From: Cyclobacteriaceae bacterium
GTDB taxonomy: Bacteria > Bacteroidota > Bacteroidia > Cytophagales > Cyclobacteriaceae
Reading direction: 5' to 3'
DNA length: 64,000 nucleotides
NCBI GenBank assembly: GCA_016787565.1
Contig: JAEUUG010000012.1
Span: 124,001 to 188,000, forward strand
How positions within the stretch are numbered: the first letter of the stretch is position 1; the number at the start of each line of letters is the position of its first letter. Shown in pieces: positions 46,900 to 53,069 of the stretch. The notes under the pieces are model-generated. The model saw only the letters and a program-made list of their open reading frames with translations. It did not search any database and had not been told where the DNA came from. The translations under genes and the position numbers were made by a program.

Positions 46900-47313
46900 A
46901 TGAAAAATAAAACCTTTCTGATGGTGATGCTGGCCCTGCTTTGGAGCACCTGCAAAGAGGAGGAGTTCACTATTCGGTTTCTCAATCAAATACAACTTAT
47001 CCAGCCAGATGAGGGAGCCCTGATGGACAATGCCTGCATGACGACAGCCGATCCCTTGGTGTGGGAATTCCAATGGGGTATGCCTTTCGGAGCTGATCAG
47101 TATGAATTGTATGTGATTGCAAACAATGCCACGGAACCCTTGATCGATTACATCCTCTATGAACCATACTATTATTACTATTGTGATACCTGTTACATTT
47201 CCAACGCCAATAAAAATTGGAAATGGAAAGTACGCGCGATGATCAATGGCATTTGGCAACCCTGGAGTGAAGAAAGAAATTTCATAGTCGAGGATCTGGA
47301 TACAGACTGCTAA
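46900..47313 (+). CDS. Surface-type lipoprotein with an FN3-like domain
   Basis: 137 residues. The signal peptide ends LALLWSTC, with Cys18 as the probable lipidation site. The next residues, KEEE, match the Bacteroidota lipoprotein export signal (Lys followed by acidic residues), which sends lipoproteins to the cell surface. The body reads as one fibronectin-III-like sandwich: PLVWEFQWGMPFGADQYELYV, WKWKVRAMINGIWQPWSEERNFIVE. A tyrosine run with two Cys (YYYYYCDTC) is notable. The stop is 20 bp before the first Lgt-like gene, so it is probably the first gene of the run and may be a client of those proteins. Confidence 0.75.
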   Translation: MKNKTFLMVMLALLWSTCKEEEFTIRFLNQIQLIQPDEGALMDNACMTTADPLVWEFQWGMPFGADQYELYVIANNATEPLIDYILYEPYYYYYCDTCYISNANKNWKWKVRAMINGIWQPWSEERNFIVEDLDTDC

Positions 47314-47333: not shown

Positions 47334-49208
47334 ATGGAAACGTTTATCCTGGAAGACATCACCTTTCCGAATTATCAATTCTTTTATGCGTTGGCTTTTC
47401 TGGTGGTCACGTTGATACTCCTTTACGAAGGAAAAAAGCAGAAACTCCCCGCTATATCCTGGTTGATGGTCATGGGGACCGGATTTCTTTTTTTTGTAGT
47501 CGGCTGTAAAATTATCGTGCTGAGTCTAGAGGACTGGAATTCAATTCTTCAATTAAAACCCCTTCACCATCCAACAGGTGCAACCGTGATAGGAGGAATT
47601 ATTTTTAGCTTTTCAGGAATATTGCTCGCTCGCTATGTGCTCAAGCTTCCGTGGCGTATGTTGGATGCTTATGCATTTGTCATTCCGATAGGCATGTTTA
47701 TTCAGCGCTTTGGATGCTTGCTGGCCGGGTGCTGCTACGGAAATCGAAGTGACTTACCCTGGGCGGTTCATTACGGTAAAACATCTACTGTATATTATCA
47801 ACAGCTGCACGAACAGCTCATTCCGGAAGGTGCAGCTCATTCCCTGGGTATTCATCCGGTACAAGTTTATGAATCCATCGGTTGCCTTCTCATTGTTTAC
47901 GTATTGATACGGCTGAAGAATTACTTTAATGCGCCCGGTAATTTCATTCTCTTCTCGGGTTTAAGTTATTACGTTATTCGATTTGTTCTCGAATTTTTCA
48001 GAGCCGATGCCGGGCATGCCTTTGGAGGAGCAAGCATCGGCTGGCTAAACCAGATTCAGTTGATCTTTGCTATTCTGGTAGTTGCTTCCATCGGCATTAT
48101 CATTTTCCGCGAAAAGCGAACACGATCGAATAAAAATTCAAATCAGCCATTGACCTTATCTTCACTGCGGTATGTCGGCTACTTTTTATGCCTCGCATTT
48201 CTTTTTGCACTAACATCCATCTGGCTAAACAGAACAGAAACACTTGTTGTGCTTATGGTCTTTGCTCCGATTGCGGTTCTCTTACTCATCCATATCTACA
48301 CCGTAGTCACCGTTCCCAACCTACGGTTGGCGACACTAAGCCTGATGGGGTGCTCCTTCCTGTTCATGAGCCAGGCAACTATTGAGAATCCAGATAAATC
48401 TGATGCTGACAAAAAAAATGCTGTCATTGAAACATTCTATGAAATTTCAGGGGGTGGAATGTTCGGAAACCACGAACTCAAAGATCAAACTGGAGAGATA
48501 CCTGGATCTGGTGGAAGCTGCGGATCAGCACCTACCCCGCTGTATACCAATGTTCACATTCATTATTCATCCGGGTCACTAGGTCTTTCACGAACATGGG
48601 TAAAGGCAGATGGGCAAACCTTAAAAGTAGGTCTTTACGGAACAGGCGGATCCATCCGGGAAGAAGTTGCCTCCGACTATCAATATGAAACTTCTAACCG
48701 CGTCAATTTCTGGAATATAAACCCAACTTTCAGACTTGAGCAAAAAGATATTGGGTTCGGCATTGGTGCTCTGGTTGGTGACTTGCATCGTATGGATACC
48801 CGCATAGACGGTGATGACTTCAACAACATTAGCGGTACGGGTAAACCTTCTCTTCTCAAATCATCATCGTTTCTTCCGCAACTCAGCCTGAGACTTGGTA
48901 ACCGGGAGAAATGGTTTGTAGAAGGTGGAATAAATGATCTCATGCCGACAGGCTTACCAGCAACCACCTATAAGGTTGGGGTGGGATTTGGCTTTAACAA
49001 CAAATCGGGTTCCTACTTATCGCTTGGTCATGCATCCTATAGCGCTCTTTACCTTGCACCCAAAGTCGTTATTAACAACAGTGTAACACTTGAGCCATTC
49101 CTTGGCTTTGGTAATAGCTTCCTGAACTCAATTGAAAGCGAAACCAATTTTATTGGTTCACTGAATCTTTCAGTCCGGTTGGGTCAAAGAAAAATCAGTC
49201 GTGAGTAA
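47334..49208 (+). CDS. Lgt-like membrane protein fused to a C-terminal beta-barrel-like domain (copy 1)
   Basis: 624 residues. Residues 1-265 form a seven-helix Lgt-type fold: IQRFGCLLAGCCYG at 123-136 (Lgt Arg/Gly box), HPVQVYESIG near 174, YYVIRFVLEFFR near 212. The Lgt HGG motif is replaced by ATVIGG (83-88), so the catalytic His is missing. Helices at about 282-303, 307-331 and 330-350 follow. The last, LRLATLSLMGCSFLFMSQA (330-348), looks like an exported-protein signal peptide with a lipobox. Residues 355-624 are beta-rich and barrel-like (AVIETFYEISGGGMFG, LGLSRTWV, LNLSVRLG). Housekeeping Lgt ends near 280. I infer a non-canonical acyl/diacylglyceryl-transferase-like polyprotein. Confidence 0.75.
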   Translation: METFILEDITFPNYQFFYALAFLVVTLILLYEGKKQKLPAISWLMVMGTGFLFFVVGCKIIVLSLEDWNSILQLKPLHHPTGATVIGGIIFSFSGILLARYVLKLPWRMLDAYAFVIPIGMFIQRFGCLLAGCCYGNRSDLPWAVHYGKTSTVYYQQLHEQLIPEGAAHSLGIHPVQVYESIGCLLIVYVLIRLKNYFNAPGNFILFSGLSYYVIRFVLEFFRADAGHAFGGASIGWLNQIQLIFAILVVASIGIIIFREKRTRSNKNSNQPLTLSSLRYVGYFLCLAFLFALTSIWLNRTETLVVLMVFAPIAVLLLIHIYTVVTVPNLRLATLSLMGCSFLFMSQATIENPDKSDADKKNAVIETFYEISGGGMFGNHELKDQTGEIPGSGGSCGSAPTPLYTNVHIHYSSGSLGLSRTWVKADGQTLKVGLYGTGGSIREEVASDYQYETSNRVNFWNINPTFRLEQKDIGFGIGALVGDLHRMDTRIDGDDFNNISGTGKPSLLKSSSFLPQLSLRLGNREKWFVEGGINDLMPTGLPATTYKVGVGFGFNNKSGSYLSLGHASYSALYLAPKVVINNSVTLEPFLGFGNSFLNSIESETNFIGSLNLSVRLGQRKISRE

Positions 49209-49343
49209 CGTAACACCAGTATGGATTAGAAATACCAGAATATGAACGATTCGTAGTAACAAATGTGCTAAAGGCTTCCCTACATTCGAAGTACCAAAAT
49301 ACCAACTAGTGCTTCACCTTCAGCTAACCTAACTACTGAGATC

Positions 49344-51113
49344 ATGTTCACCCATTCATTCCTTACATACCAGTCCTTTTACCTGCTGGCATTTCTGACT
49401 GCAATCGTTGTGTTGATTCTGGAGGGAAGAAAACGACACATACCGGCACTTCCCTGGTTTATGCTTATCTGCACTGGCTTCATATTTTTTATGGTTGGAG
49501 CGAAAGCAGCTTCACTTACTGACCATGATTGGAGGACAGTGTCACAATTTAAACCCTTAAACTATTCACCGGGCATAACTGTAATCGGAGGCATCCTCTT
49601 CAGTTTCGTTGGACTATTACTAGCCCGGTATTCGCTAAAACTTCCCTGGAGTATACTGGATGCATTTGCCTTTACAATACCCATCGGAATGTGCATTCAA
49701 CGCTTCGGATGCCTTCAGGCTGGTTGTTGCTATGGAACGGCTAGCGAAGTACCGTGGGCCATTACTCAAAAAATTGACGACCATCAAATACTGCAGAGTA
49801 CGGTTCATCCTGTTCAGCTATATGAATCTATTGGTTGTGTACTCATCGTGTTGCTCTTACTCAAGATGCGTAATCGATTCAAGGCCCCGGTGAACTTTCT
49901 GTTCTTTTCGGCTATGTGCTACTACGTTTTACGCTTTTGTCTTGACTTCTTCAGGGATATTCATGCGTATGCTTTTAACGTAAACTATTTTGCCGGGCTT
50001 ACGTCTGTGCAGTGGTTGTTATTTGCACTAATCATATGTTCCACCGTGATCATCTCCTGTCGTGAAAAATTCTATACGCTGAAAAAAGATAATCCTATAC
50101 ACATCTCGCGTTTGCGACACATCTTCTTCTTCGTGGTTCTATGCCTGATTGTACAAGCAGGTTCTTTGTGGATGAACAGCGTTGACCGTGTGATTATGTT
50201 CATTACGCTCACCCCTATTGTTGTTATCCTGATCATGAAGACTTACAGCGCTGTGATTATTCCTCCATTACGATTGGCAGCCTTCGCTTTGATTGGCTGT
50301 GCAGTACTTCTGATGAGCCAGACAACAGTTGAGTCTCGATCTGTAAAAAACGAAGTAACAGAGACATACAATACTATTTCTGGTGGCATTATGAGTGGGA
50401 AAATCAATTTCGAAAAGGAACTGGTAACTGGAGGAGGTACCTCCTGTGACGGATCAAGCGCACCGTATACAACTTCTAACCTGGCCTTCAAAGAAAAATA
50501 CTCATCGTTGGGTGGAGGTTATGCAAGAACATGGGTTAGAGGTGAGCAGAGCAAGCTAACGGCTGGACTAAATCTCGTTGCTTCTACATTCAGGGAAACC
50601 ATTGAAGTTGATTATAATGAGTTCTCTTCAAAAAAGAATACCTATTTCACAGCTAATCCATACCTCACCTCAGACTTCAAATATATTGGCTTCACAGCAG
50701 GCATGCACCTTGGCAACTCCAGCATCATCCAATATGATGATAGCGAGTATGCAGAAAGCATGCTTACAAATTCAACCTTTAAACCTCAATTTGGTATCCG
50801 GGCAGGGCGAGCGGATGGTGTCTATTTTGCGGGTCACATCTATGATAATTCCATTCCTCTAGGTCTGATACCATGGCAACTCGGAATCGGATTTGGAAGC
50901 AAAAAAATTGCTGGCAATTCGGTAGAACTAGGAGTTTCAGCTTACTCAATACTTTACATTGCCCCAACCTTTGTCATAAAGCAAAACGTAGTGCTAAAGC
51001 CTTATGTGGGTATAGGTCCGGGCTTTAACGCGGCCCTTGGCGAATCTGAATCATCTACAGGAATTGTTGGCGCATTCAGCGTATCGACCATTGTTGGGCG
51101 AAAAAAACGATAG
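49344..51113 (+). CDS. Lgt-like membrane protein fused to a C-terminal beta-barrel-like domain (copy 2)
   Basis: 589 residues, a divergent paralogue of 47334-49208 in the same order. Shared blocks are CIQRFGCLQAGCCYG, HPVQLYESIG and YYVLRFCLDFF, again with VIGG in place of the Lgt HGG. The final membrane segment LRLAAFALIGCAVLLMSQT (309-327) is again signal-peptide-like with LIGC. A barrel-like C-terminus follows (LGGGYARTWV, GAFSVSTIVG). Both copies have one conserved Cys soon after the junction (GGSCGSAP / GGTSCDGSSAP). The gap to copy 1 is 135 bp. Retention of the fusion in both copies argues against an annotation artefact. Confidence 0.75.
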   Translation: MFTHSFLTYQSFYLLAFLTAIVVLILEGRKRHIPALPWFMLICTGFIFFMVGAKAASLTDHDWRTVSQFKPLNYSPGITVIGGILFSFVGLLLARYSLKLPWSILDAFAFTIPIGMCIQRFGCLQAGCCYGTASEVPWAITQKIDDHQILQSTVHPVQLYESIGCVLIVLLLLKMRNRFKAPVNFLFFSAMCYYVLRFCLDFFRDIHAYAFNVNYFAGLTSVQWLLFALIICSTVIISCREKFYTLKKDNPIHISRLRHIFFFVVLCLIVQAGSLWMNSVDRVIMFITLTPIVVILIMKTYSAVIIPPLRLAAFALIGCAVLLMSQTTVESRSVKNEVTETYNTISGGIMSGKINFEKELVTGGGTSCDGSSAPYTTSNLAFKEKYSSLGGGYARTWVRGEQSKLTAGLNLVASTFRETIEVDYNEFSSKKNTYFTANPYLTSDFKYIGFTAGMHLGNSSIIQYDDSEYAESMLTNSTFKPQFGIRAGRADGVYFAGHIYDNSIPLGLIPWQLGIGFGSKKIAGNSVELGVSAYSILYIAPTFVIKQNVVLKPYVGIGPGFNAALGESESSTGIVGAFSVSTIVGRKKR

Positions 51114-51150: not shown

Positions 51151-52179
51151 TTGAAATCTTTTCCTGCTTTCTTATCCGGCTCATCCCTCTATAACATCAT
51201 TCACTTGTTGAAGAAGCACGCTGTGTCAAGAAAATTAACTTATAAACTACCCGATATATTCTTTTGGCCATTGCTGATGTTTCCGTTAGCCCTTTTCGAA
51301 AGAATCGTTTTTTACCTCCCCATCTCCAAAACTACTGTCATCAATCCGGTTTTCATTATCGGGCATTGGCGAAGCGGCACAACCTACCTGCACTACTTGC
51401 TGTCGCAGGATAAATCGTTCTATGCCCCCACCAATCTGGATGCATTTGTTCCGGAAGTAAACATACTAGGTGGCGCGTTGGCTAAAAAAATATTGCATCA
51501 TCGTTTGCCTCAAACACGCCCGATGGATGATGTTGAACTTCACCCGGACTTACCGCAGGAAGAAGAATTTGCTATTGCCAATCTTTCACCGTACTCTTTC
51601 TATCACGCATTGACTTTTCCAGATCATTTTAGAAAGTTGTTCAACCAATTTGTTTTGTTGAGAAATAGCTCAGAAAAGAAGTTACTGCGTTGGGAAAAAG
51701 TTTACACAACATATTTAAAAAAAATACAATACAAGGCTGGTAAGAAAAGGTTGTTACTTAAAAATCCTGTCAACACAGCACGCATACAGACACTCCTCAA
51801 ACTCTATCCGGACGCTAAATTCATATACCTCCATCGCGACCCAACAGAAGTGAAGCATTCAACCTTTCGTATGTTTCATGCATTGATAAAAATTAACACA
51901 TTACAACCCTTTGATACGGCTCAGTTGAAAAAGGATATCACCACCTGTTATACCGAAATGATGGAGGTTTATGAAAACCAACGAACTATACTAACACCGG
52001 AAAATTTAATTGAATTATCCTACCAGGATTTACTTGCAAATCCAGCGCATGTTGTTGCTTCCATTTATTCTCAATTTCAATGGAAGGGACTTGAAGCAAA
52101 TCAGTCAAACTTTGAACGATTTATAGAAAACCAAAAAGATTACAAACCTCATCTTTATACAGAAACAATAGTAAACTAA
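51151..52179 (+). CDS. Sulfotransferase-family protein (PAPS-dependent)
   Basis: 342 residues from a TTG start; a stop lies four codons upstream in frame, so no earlier start is available. The 5'-phosphosulfate loop is IIGHWRSGTTYLH (GHWRSGTTY at 71-79) and the 3'-phosphate element FIYLHRDPTEVKHSTFR (Arg229, Ser237), placing it in the Sulfotransfer_3 group. A hydrophobic segment at about 36-57 may associate it with the membrane. The acceptor is unknown; lipid or glycan is plausible next to the Lgt-like genes. The KAS III-like gene starts 8 bp after its stop, so the pair is almost certainly co-transcribed. Confidence 0.85.
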   Translation: MKSFPAFLSGSSLYNIIHLLKKHAVSRKLTYKLPDIFFWPLLMFPLALFERIVFYLPISKTTVINPVFIIGHWRSGTTYLHYLLSQDKSFYAPTNLDAFVPEVNILGGALAKKILHHRLPQTRPMDDVELHPDLPQEEEFAIANLSPYSFYHALTFPDHFRKLFNQFVLLRNSSEKKLLRWEKVYTTYLKKIQYKAGKKRLLLKNPVNTARIQTLLKLYPDAKFIYLHRDPTEVKHSTFRMFHALIKINTLQPFDTAQLKKDITTCYTEMMEVYENQRTILTPENLIELSYQDLLANPAHVVASIYSQFQWKGLEANQSNFERFIENQKDYKPHLYTETIVN

Positions 52180-52187
52180 AAAGAAAT

Positions 52188-53069
52188 ATGGGGACCCTCA
52201 TTTCACATATGCATAGCACCTTCAATCGGTCGAATGACTATACCCACACAGTGCTCAACCTCGCTGTGGATGTTCTTTCTCCCCTGTTGAGTAACGGAGC
52301 ACCAAAGACATTTTCTCACCTGGTGGTTTCCACAACTTGTCCTGATACACTGGCGCCTTCGTTGGGTCAGACCATCAATCAACACTTTTACCCGCGGTTC
52401 GCCAATGCTCATGTATTTGATCTAGTGCAGGGGTGTGCCGGTGGTGTTTCAGCACTCGTGTTGGCAAGCCAGTTAAGCGAAATCTCGAAAAGTCATGTAG
52501 CTGTTTTACTGGCCGATGCAGCACGACAATCGGTATCCGATCAAAATAATATCCGTCCTTTCTTTGGCAATGGAGCCTTCACCTGCGTCATCTCGACTAC
52601 TAAAGGCGACCAACGCATGATTCATCACAAAACAAAACAATATGAAAATCTGTCGGAACTGGTAACCGTAAAGTTGGGTCATCGGGCACATCAGGAAATT
52701 CTTCAAGGCAAGGAAAAGGTTTTACAAGACCCACTTGATCAGCTTGGGCTGCACATGAATCCTGTGTTAGCACTAAAGCTACTCCGGCATGCTGAAGAAT
52801 TCTATCACGAATTTCTGGAGGAATGCAAGACAAAACCGGATATGATGATTTTCCACCAGGTAAATCCTGAAATTCTGAACCTCTTACAGGGAGTATTCAC
52901 ACCGCATGTGGCCGAGTTTGTGAACCTGGCGGATGTCGTAGGCAACTGCGGTTCGGCCTCCTTTGCCATTGCGCTGGATCTGGTAAAAGAAAAAATACCG
53001 GGTAAAAAAGTCTTTCTATGCAGCTTCGGCACAGGTGGAGTAATCAGTGCCGGGTTATGGCAATTTTGA
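52188..53069 (+). CDS. Beta-ketoacyl-ACP synthase III-like enzyme
   Basis: 293 residues; the thiolase fold lacks about 30-40 N-terminal residues compared with FabH. The Cys-His-Asn triad is intact: Cys83 in FDLVQGCAGGVSAL, His223 in IFHQVNPEIL, Asn253 in VGNCGSASFAIAL. FFGNGAF matches the FabH FGDGA loop with Asp replaced by Asn. The last strand ends GTGGVISAGLWQF. It should condense an acyl-CoA starter with malonyl-ACP or transfer an acyl group. Context allows two readings: a partner of the sulfotransferase, or a BioZ-like starter enzyme for biotin, since bioFDA begins 1 kb downstream. Confidence 0.8.
   Translation: MGTLISHMHSTFNRSNDYTHTVLNLAVDVLSPLLSNGAPKTFSHLVVSTTCPDTLAPSLGQTINQHFYPRFANAHVFDLVQGCAGGVSALVLASQLSEISKSHVAVLLADAARQSVSDQNNIRPFFGNGAFTCVISTTKGDQRMIHHKTKQYENLSELVTVKLGHRAHQEILQGKEKVLQDPLDQLGLHMNPVLALKLLRHAEEFYHEFLEECKTKPDMMIFHQVNPEILNLLQGVFTPHVAEFVNLADVVGNCGSASFAIALDLVKEKIPGKKVFLCSFGTGGVISAGLWQF

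Follow-up and report, generated by a model that had tools for sequence, protein, structure and literature searches.

A bacterial precursor that joins a polytopic inner-membrane protein to an exported protein in a single chain is the cytochrome b/c1 precursor FbcH of Bradyrhizobium, which is cut at an internal signal peptide. To our knowledge, no bacterial precursor has been described whose halves are bound for different membranes. Two tandem genes of a Cyclobacteriaceae bacterium, which may encode proteins of this kind, are the subject of the present analysis. They lie on the + strand of a window of 64,000 nucleotides (GenBank assembly GCA_016787565.1, contig JAEUUG010000012.1, positions 124,001 to 188,000), to which all coordinates without a locus label refer. 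Copy 1 (47334..49208, 624 amino acids) encodes a membrane domain related to prolipoprotein diacylglyceryl transferase (Lgt), three further helices and a predicted 12-stranded barrel, and copy 2 (49344..51113, 589 amino acids) has the same architecture. The two copies are 42% identical and alignable end to end, and both open reading frames (ORFs) occupy exactly the positions given in a preliminary description of this DNA. That description also held that a membrane enzyme and a barrel cannot share one membrane. The two parts are as it stated, and the paradox is probably solved by an internal signal peptidase site that it had not considered, as the last of the extra helices has the character of a signal peptide for the barrel.

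Each gene probably encodes a precursor that signal peptidase I cuts into an Lgt-like protein of the inner membrane and a barrel of the outer membrane, the cleavage and the outer-membrane insertion being what we infer. The N-terminal part, consisting of the seven-helix Lgt-like domain and transmembrane helices (TM) 8 and 9, with the N-terminus in the periplasm, would be inserted in the inner membrane. The tenth helix would serve on entry as the barrel's signal peptide, with signal peptidase I cutting at the periplasmic end of this helix, between a small residue and an invariant Gln. The freed C-terminal barrel would then fold into the outer membrane.

Ten helices are found in copy 1 by both hydropathy and AlphaFold2 (AF2): the seven of the Lgt fold, contained in residues 7-263 (47352..48122), and three more at residues 277-294, 300-325 and 328-346. 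The first two of these, TM8 and TM9, correspond to 48162..48308 and the last helix to 48315..48371. In the AF2 model, with a mean predicted local distance difference test score (pLDDT) of 85.2, residues 348-357 are disordered and are followed by 12 strands over residues 364-620 (48423..49193). The barrel part modeled alone again gives 12 strands (pLDDT 82.5, predicted template modeling score 0.79). The top Foldseek match of the copy 1 model is E. coli Lgt (5azb), with a TM-score of 0.65 by target length, and the other 23 matches at E<=1e-3 are all outer-membrane barrels. When a structural aligner was run with the barrel alone, the Z scores went up to 14.7 for autotransporter barrels of 12 strands and were 12-13 for the COG4313 channel and for FapF; no barrel with a recognizable common functional site is in the aligner's listing. 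Nor did the barrel part match any Pfam or NCBIfam family profile, although such a match is not required of all barrels, and neither a PDB sequence search with copy 1 alone nor PHROGs gave a match. By its strands and structural matches, the C-terminal part is predicted to be a closed antiparallel barrel of amphipathic strands, of the outer-membrane type. The three added helices and the beta-rich, barrel-like C-terminus proposed in the preliminary description agree with the prediction for copy 1, which could have shown no barrel at all and gave one of 12 strands. In copy 2 the barrel region, placed by alignment with copy 1, runs from about residue 338 to the end (50355..51110).

The joint between the two parts was compared among 48 full-length or near-full-length fusions, mostly from Hymenobacter and with others from elsewhere in the Bacteroidota; three pairs have identical barrels, so that about 45 are distinct, and one (L067) is cut by the end of its contig. 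A Gln stands directly after the last helix in 48 of 48, whereas the overall identity among the sequences is only about 25%. This residue, the proposed +1 position of signal peptidase I, is Gln347 in copy 1 (48372..48374) and Gln326 in copy 2 (50319..50321), the latter after a last helix at about residues 307-325 by alignment with copy 1 (50262..50318), likewise a candidate internal signal peptide. The preceding residue (-1) is Ser in 32 fusions, Ala in 9, Asn in 6 and Gly in 1, and position -3 is Leu in 33, Phe in 7, Thr in 5, Ser in 2 and Ile in 1. Gln is found at +1 in most signal peptidase I substrates of Bacteroidetes, with a mean of 71% across species (PMC5837995). By a rough count, the same rule holds for 8 of 13 candidate signal peptides in the window, for 38 of 50 in the Hymenobacter loci and for 3 of 13 in loci from other phyla. 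Loop charges, read by the positive-inside rule, place residue 347 on the periplasmic side, where signal peptidase I acts. The linker from Gln to the first strand is only 8-17 residues long, at most about 6 nm, and the uncut chain would therefore be too short to put the barrel in the outer membrane.

That the last helix may act as a signal peptide is best supported, by sequence comparison, by the barrels that occur alone. The loci read contain 14 stand-alone relatives of the barrel, and all 14 possess a signal-peptide-like N-terminus that aligns with the last helix of the fusions. Gln follows at +1 in 13 of them, mostly in the form A↓Q (the arrow marks the proposed cut). The stand-alone barrels nest among the fusions in the barrel tree, and four changes are needed to explain their distribution; the barrel has thus repeatedly lost its Lgt part and persisted as an ordinary exported protein. 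Two of them (L179:5679-6608 and L180:6550-7437) carry a CxxCG loop motif in place of the single loop Cys described below. The second of these genes lies immediately downstream of a fusion in the same orientation, and the first has no fusion at its locus.

A barrel could also be made separately if translation started at a codon just before the last helix, in which case the fusion protein would be incidental. In copy 2 an in-frame ATG, with a Lys codon after it, does lie about 28 codons ahead of Gln326. Only 9 of the 48 fusions, however, have an ATG in frame within the stretch 18-34 codons before the Gln, and only 2 of 48 combine a start codon of any type in that stretch with a Shine-Dalgarno-like sequence (Bacteroidota often lack such a sequence), so that an internal start is very improbable.

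Several observations weigh against cleavage of the precursor as proposed here. At -1, Ala or Gly predominates in the ordinary signal peptides of the Hymenobacter loci and of the window, whereas the fusions have mostly Ser or Asn there and Leu or Phe at -3. As these residues are atypical, the proposed site may be slow, or the real cut may lie 3-4 residues downstream, where many Hymenobacter copies read xPA↓DS. The distant fusion of genome G705 has Phe before the Gln and thus no small residue at that position, and the Gln could be conserved for some other reason. AF2 models the last helix as continuing the membrane domain, and neither the confidence nor the topology of the AF2 model proves an outer-membrane location. 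A chain that stays uncut is nevertheless unlikely, given the outer-membrane type of the predicted barrel, the short linker, the cleavable type of signal peptide with which the stand-alone relatives are exported and the invariant Gln at the proposed cut.

The fusion is concentrated in one family of the order. A first contig scan seeded with only two sequences gave no matches. Among 117 scanned relatives, full-length fusions are found in two genomes besides that of the window, and across 390 genomes of the order they fall predominantly in a single family and mostly in one genus, Hymenobacter. The fusion is present in 39 of 120 genomes sampled from this family, with its parts on two ORFs in one case (G357), and another 8 carry a stand-alone barrel only. 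The barrel domain was seen in three genomes of a phylum-wide sample of 395, one case being a distant fusion outside the class of the window (G705, L191). Other fusions occur in metagenome-assembled genomes labeled Bacteroidetes, Bacteroidales, Flavobacteriales and Cryomorphaceae, and tandem pairs like that of the window are present in two further genomes (G313 and G142). As dozens of other genomes encode the same architecture in one open frame, chance and a sequencing or assembly artifact fusing two genes are rejected; the preliminary description had already considered a fusion by sequencing error unlikely. In a quick tree, a single branch (Shimodaira-Hasegawa-like approximate likelihood ratio test 99) holds the Lgt domain of every fusion and that of one natural split, separate from canonical Lgt, from single-domain paralogues with a Cys-rich motif (Cys-type) and from a third group of paralogues; by sequence, this is compatible with one origin of the fusion. 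The natural split (L195:5854-7686), from the family of Hymenobacter, consists of adjacent ORFs, one for the Lgt-like domain (268 amino acids) and one for TM8-10 and the barrel (331 amino acids). Two fusions from Flavobacteriales/Cryomorphaceae (L070:7911-9776 and L071:3-1859) possess three loop Cys (C-x6-C-x4-C) and A↓Q at the joint. As candidates for partner genes, the conserved flanks in Hymenobacter (clusters C1 and C3-C6, with an upstream DUF2867 / NAD-binding gene) are apparently unrelated to the fusions, and the locus resembles a site of conserved synteny more than a functional operon.

Both copies belong to the PF01790 LGT superfamily by fold and profile. The Pfam LGT profile covers residues 7-257 of copy 1 (E 4e-25) and 8-237 of copy 2 (49365..50054, E 8e-26), with scores of 89 and 91 bits against a curated cut-off of 24.9, and a profile match links copy 1 to 5azb with E 6.8e-47. 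The NCBIfam cut-offs for Lgt equivalogs are missed by far (69 bits against 334, and 46 against 118.9). The motifs quoted in the preliminary description as markers of the Lgt fold are present in the two copies (RFGCLLAGCCYG and RFGCLQAGCCYG, HPVQVYES and HPVQLYES, YYVIRFVLEFF and YYVLRFCLDFF). They do identify an Lgt-related domain, but as markers they belong to a Cys-type Lgt paralogue and not to canonical Lgt. The Cys-type motif reads GCLLAGCCYG in copy 1 (residues 127-136, 47712..47741), where E. coli Lgt has GNFINGELWG, and GCLQAGCCYG in copy 2 (residues 122-131, 49707..49736).

The fusions were mapped to the numbering of E. coli Lgt and compared at the residues essential in that enzyme (PMC4728403, PMC13251419). 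The position of His103, in the HGGL motif, where an aromatic residue (Tyr, Trp or Phe) would also be acceptable, holds Ile in both window copies and Leu in 39 of 39 Hymenobacter copies, and the positions of Asn146 and Glu151 hold Cys in all fusions; distant Lgt proteins of the N146C type are mentioned in PMC13251419. The equivalents of Tyr26, Gly154, Arg239 and Arg246 are retained in both window copies; among all fusions the Arg246 equivalent is invariant and the Arg239 equivalent is present in most. Arg143 has its equivalent in both window copies and is replaced by Cys or Gly in 39 of 39 Hymenobacter fusions, where the equivalents of Glu202 and Tyr235 are variable. Cys128, Cys133, Cys134, Arg223 (the equivalent of Arg246) and Gln242 are invariant in an alignment of 20 sequences. 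With two essential positions (His103 and Asn146) changed, the sequences do not support calling these proteins a functional Lgt enzyme. A strong Lgt match outside the fusion is present in 18 of 18 genomes checked and is canonical by motif wherever it could be classified (for G346 and G705 the best copy is unclassified). Ordinary lipoprotein synthesis therefore does not depend on the fusions, and to judge from these residues they probably do not carry it out.

Single-domain Cys-type paralogues are widespread, including in Myxococcota, Elusimicrobiota, Acidobacteriota and Bacteroidota. Outside the fusions, the genome of the window contains two canonical Lgt genes and one such paralogue (L003, contig C18:155518-156246, about 265 amino acids, motif GCFLAGCCYG), with neighbors resembling a DUF1080 protein and sorbosone dehydrogenase. 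A further group of single-domain Lgt paralogues, found mainly in Hymenobacter, possesses the motif GRLGCFFSGLEDGTYG, has NKTIVGG replacing HGG and forms a separate branch of the tree (L219-L224, L226 and L031).

The loss of the catalytic His103 and Asn146 equivalents, together with the substitutions in the Hymenobacter copies and the presence of a separate Lgt, would fit a dead enzyme that only anchors or chaperones the barrel during export, or binds lipid, so that the fusion would serve assembly and not chemistry. This is a plainer account of the purpose of the fusion than modification of the barrel in cis. The three Cys, Arg246 and several glycines are nevertheless invariant across very diverged fusions, which looks like retained chemistry, and the stand-alone barrels manage without an Lgt part. 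We consider a dead enzyme unlikely.

In the barrel itself, the invariant residues are the Gln, some glycines and one Cys in a Gly-rich loop between strands 1 and 2. This Cys (Cys396 in copy 1, 48519..48521; Cys368 in copy 2, 50445..50447) is present in 48 of 48 fusions in the context (S/G)-G-C-(S/G) and would lie on the outer side if the N-terminus of the barrel is periplasmic. It is the sole Cys of the mature barrel in 37 of 48, so that no internal disulfide can form in these. The Cys is kept in 2 of 14 stand-alone barrels and was lost in three of the four inferred losses of the Lgt part. A paper on myxosortase proposed that an unidentified Lgt-like lipid transferase acts on the non-lipobox Cys motif of MYXO-CTERM tags (PMC11980579), and the context of the loop Cys resembles that motif, a likeness that may serve as a lead only.

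Under cleavage of the precursor, the most likely reason for having both parts in one gene would be an encounter in cis between the Cys-type Lgt-like domain and the barrel; that this domain modifies the loop Cys before release is possible though not likely. Stated in full, the precursor would be cut and an active Cys-type Lgt-like transferase would act on the loop Cys of its own barrel, enzyme and substrate being delivered together, which would be an added step on the two-membrane precursor and not a replacement for it. The conservation and context of the loop Cys, its loss with the Lgt part, the invariant Cys128, Cys133 and Cys134, the retained arginines and the enzyme proposed for MYXO-CTERM tags are consistent with such a step. 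Against it stand the lack of a lipobox in the fusions and the substituted His103, Asn146 and (in Hymenobacter) Arg143 equivalents. The association of the Cys with the fusion moreover fails to reach significance when the tree is taken into account (3 independent pairs, p 0.5), as there are too few independent events; L179 retains the Cys with no fusion at its locus; and no barrel partner was found for the single-domain Cys-type paralogues in their neighborhoods in the genome of the window. Self-modification in this form is rather unlikely. It would imply a class of genes with enzyme and substrate in one chain for two membranes, in which a lipid or other group is put on a loop Cys without a lipobox before the cut by signal peptidase I. 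That such a class exists is doubtful; if it does, the single-domain Cys-type Lgt paralogues may be suggested to modify cysteines outside lipoboxes.

Two features flank the tandem genes. A small lipoprotein-like ORF of 137 amino acids (46900-47313, +), with a lipobox-like LLWSTC, ends 20 bases before copy 1 and is probably co-transcribed with it; it has no match among 58 related genomes. Copy 2 is followed on the same strand by genes for a sulfotransferase (PF13469) and a KAS III-like ketosynthase (51151-53069), with no link to the fusions established.

The proposed two-membrane fusion is common in Hymenobacter and its family, and the automatic label "prolipoprotein diacylglyceryl transferase" would mislead for these genes. 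As the Cys-type domain is here joined to a candidate partner, a barrel whose one invariant Cys is mostly unpaired, the fusion also provides a starting point for finding what the widespread Cys-type Lgt paralogues do. No description of an Lgt-barrel fusion was found in the literature searched, from which subscription journals were mostly absent, in agreement with the preliminary description, which knew of no protein with such an architecture; a paper on lipidated ribosomally synthesized and post-translationally modified peptides (PMC12636315) proved to be unrelated. The Lgt family and internal signal peptides are already known, and modification in cis would be categorically new if true.

Compared with known systems, the fusions share the fold of Lgt (PF01790; E. 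coli 5azb/5azc) over their first 260 or so residues and keep the equivalents of Tyr26, Gly154, Arg239 and Arg246, and in the window of Arg143, but they differ in Ile for His103, in Cys for Asn146 and Glu151, in the added helices and in the barrel. With the single-domain Cys-type paralogues (GCxxxGCCxG) they have in common the Cys trio and the Arg239 and Arg246 equivalents; those proteins stop at about 260-330 amino acids without a barrel, and their position 103 is mostly Tyr instead of Leu or Ile. Like the substrates of signal peptidase I that follow the Gln rule (PMC5837995), the fusions have Gln right after a hydrophobic helix and a small residue on the periplasmic side, whereas the signal of those substrates is N-terminal and that of the fusions would lie 325-350 residues into a polytopic protein, with mostly Ser or Asn at -1. 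The barrel resembles the 12-stranded autotransporter beta domains such as BrkA (3qq2), the COG4313 channel (4rl8) and FapF (5o65) in strand number and fold (Z 12-15), but has only about 10% identity to them and no recognized common functional site. FbcH, finally, is one chain cut at an internal signal peptide, as is proposed for the fusions; its two products remain part of one inner-membrane complex, whereas the second part of the fusions is a predicted barrel of the outer membrane.

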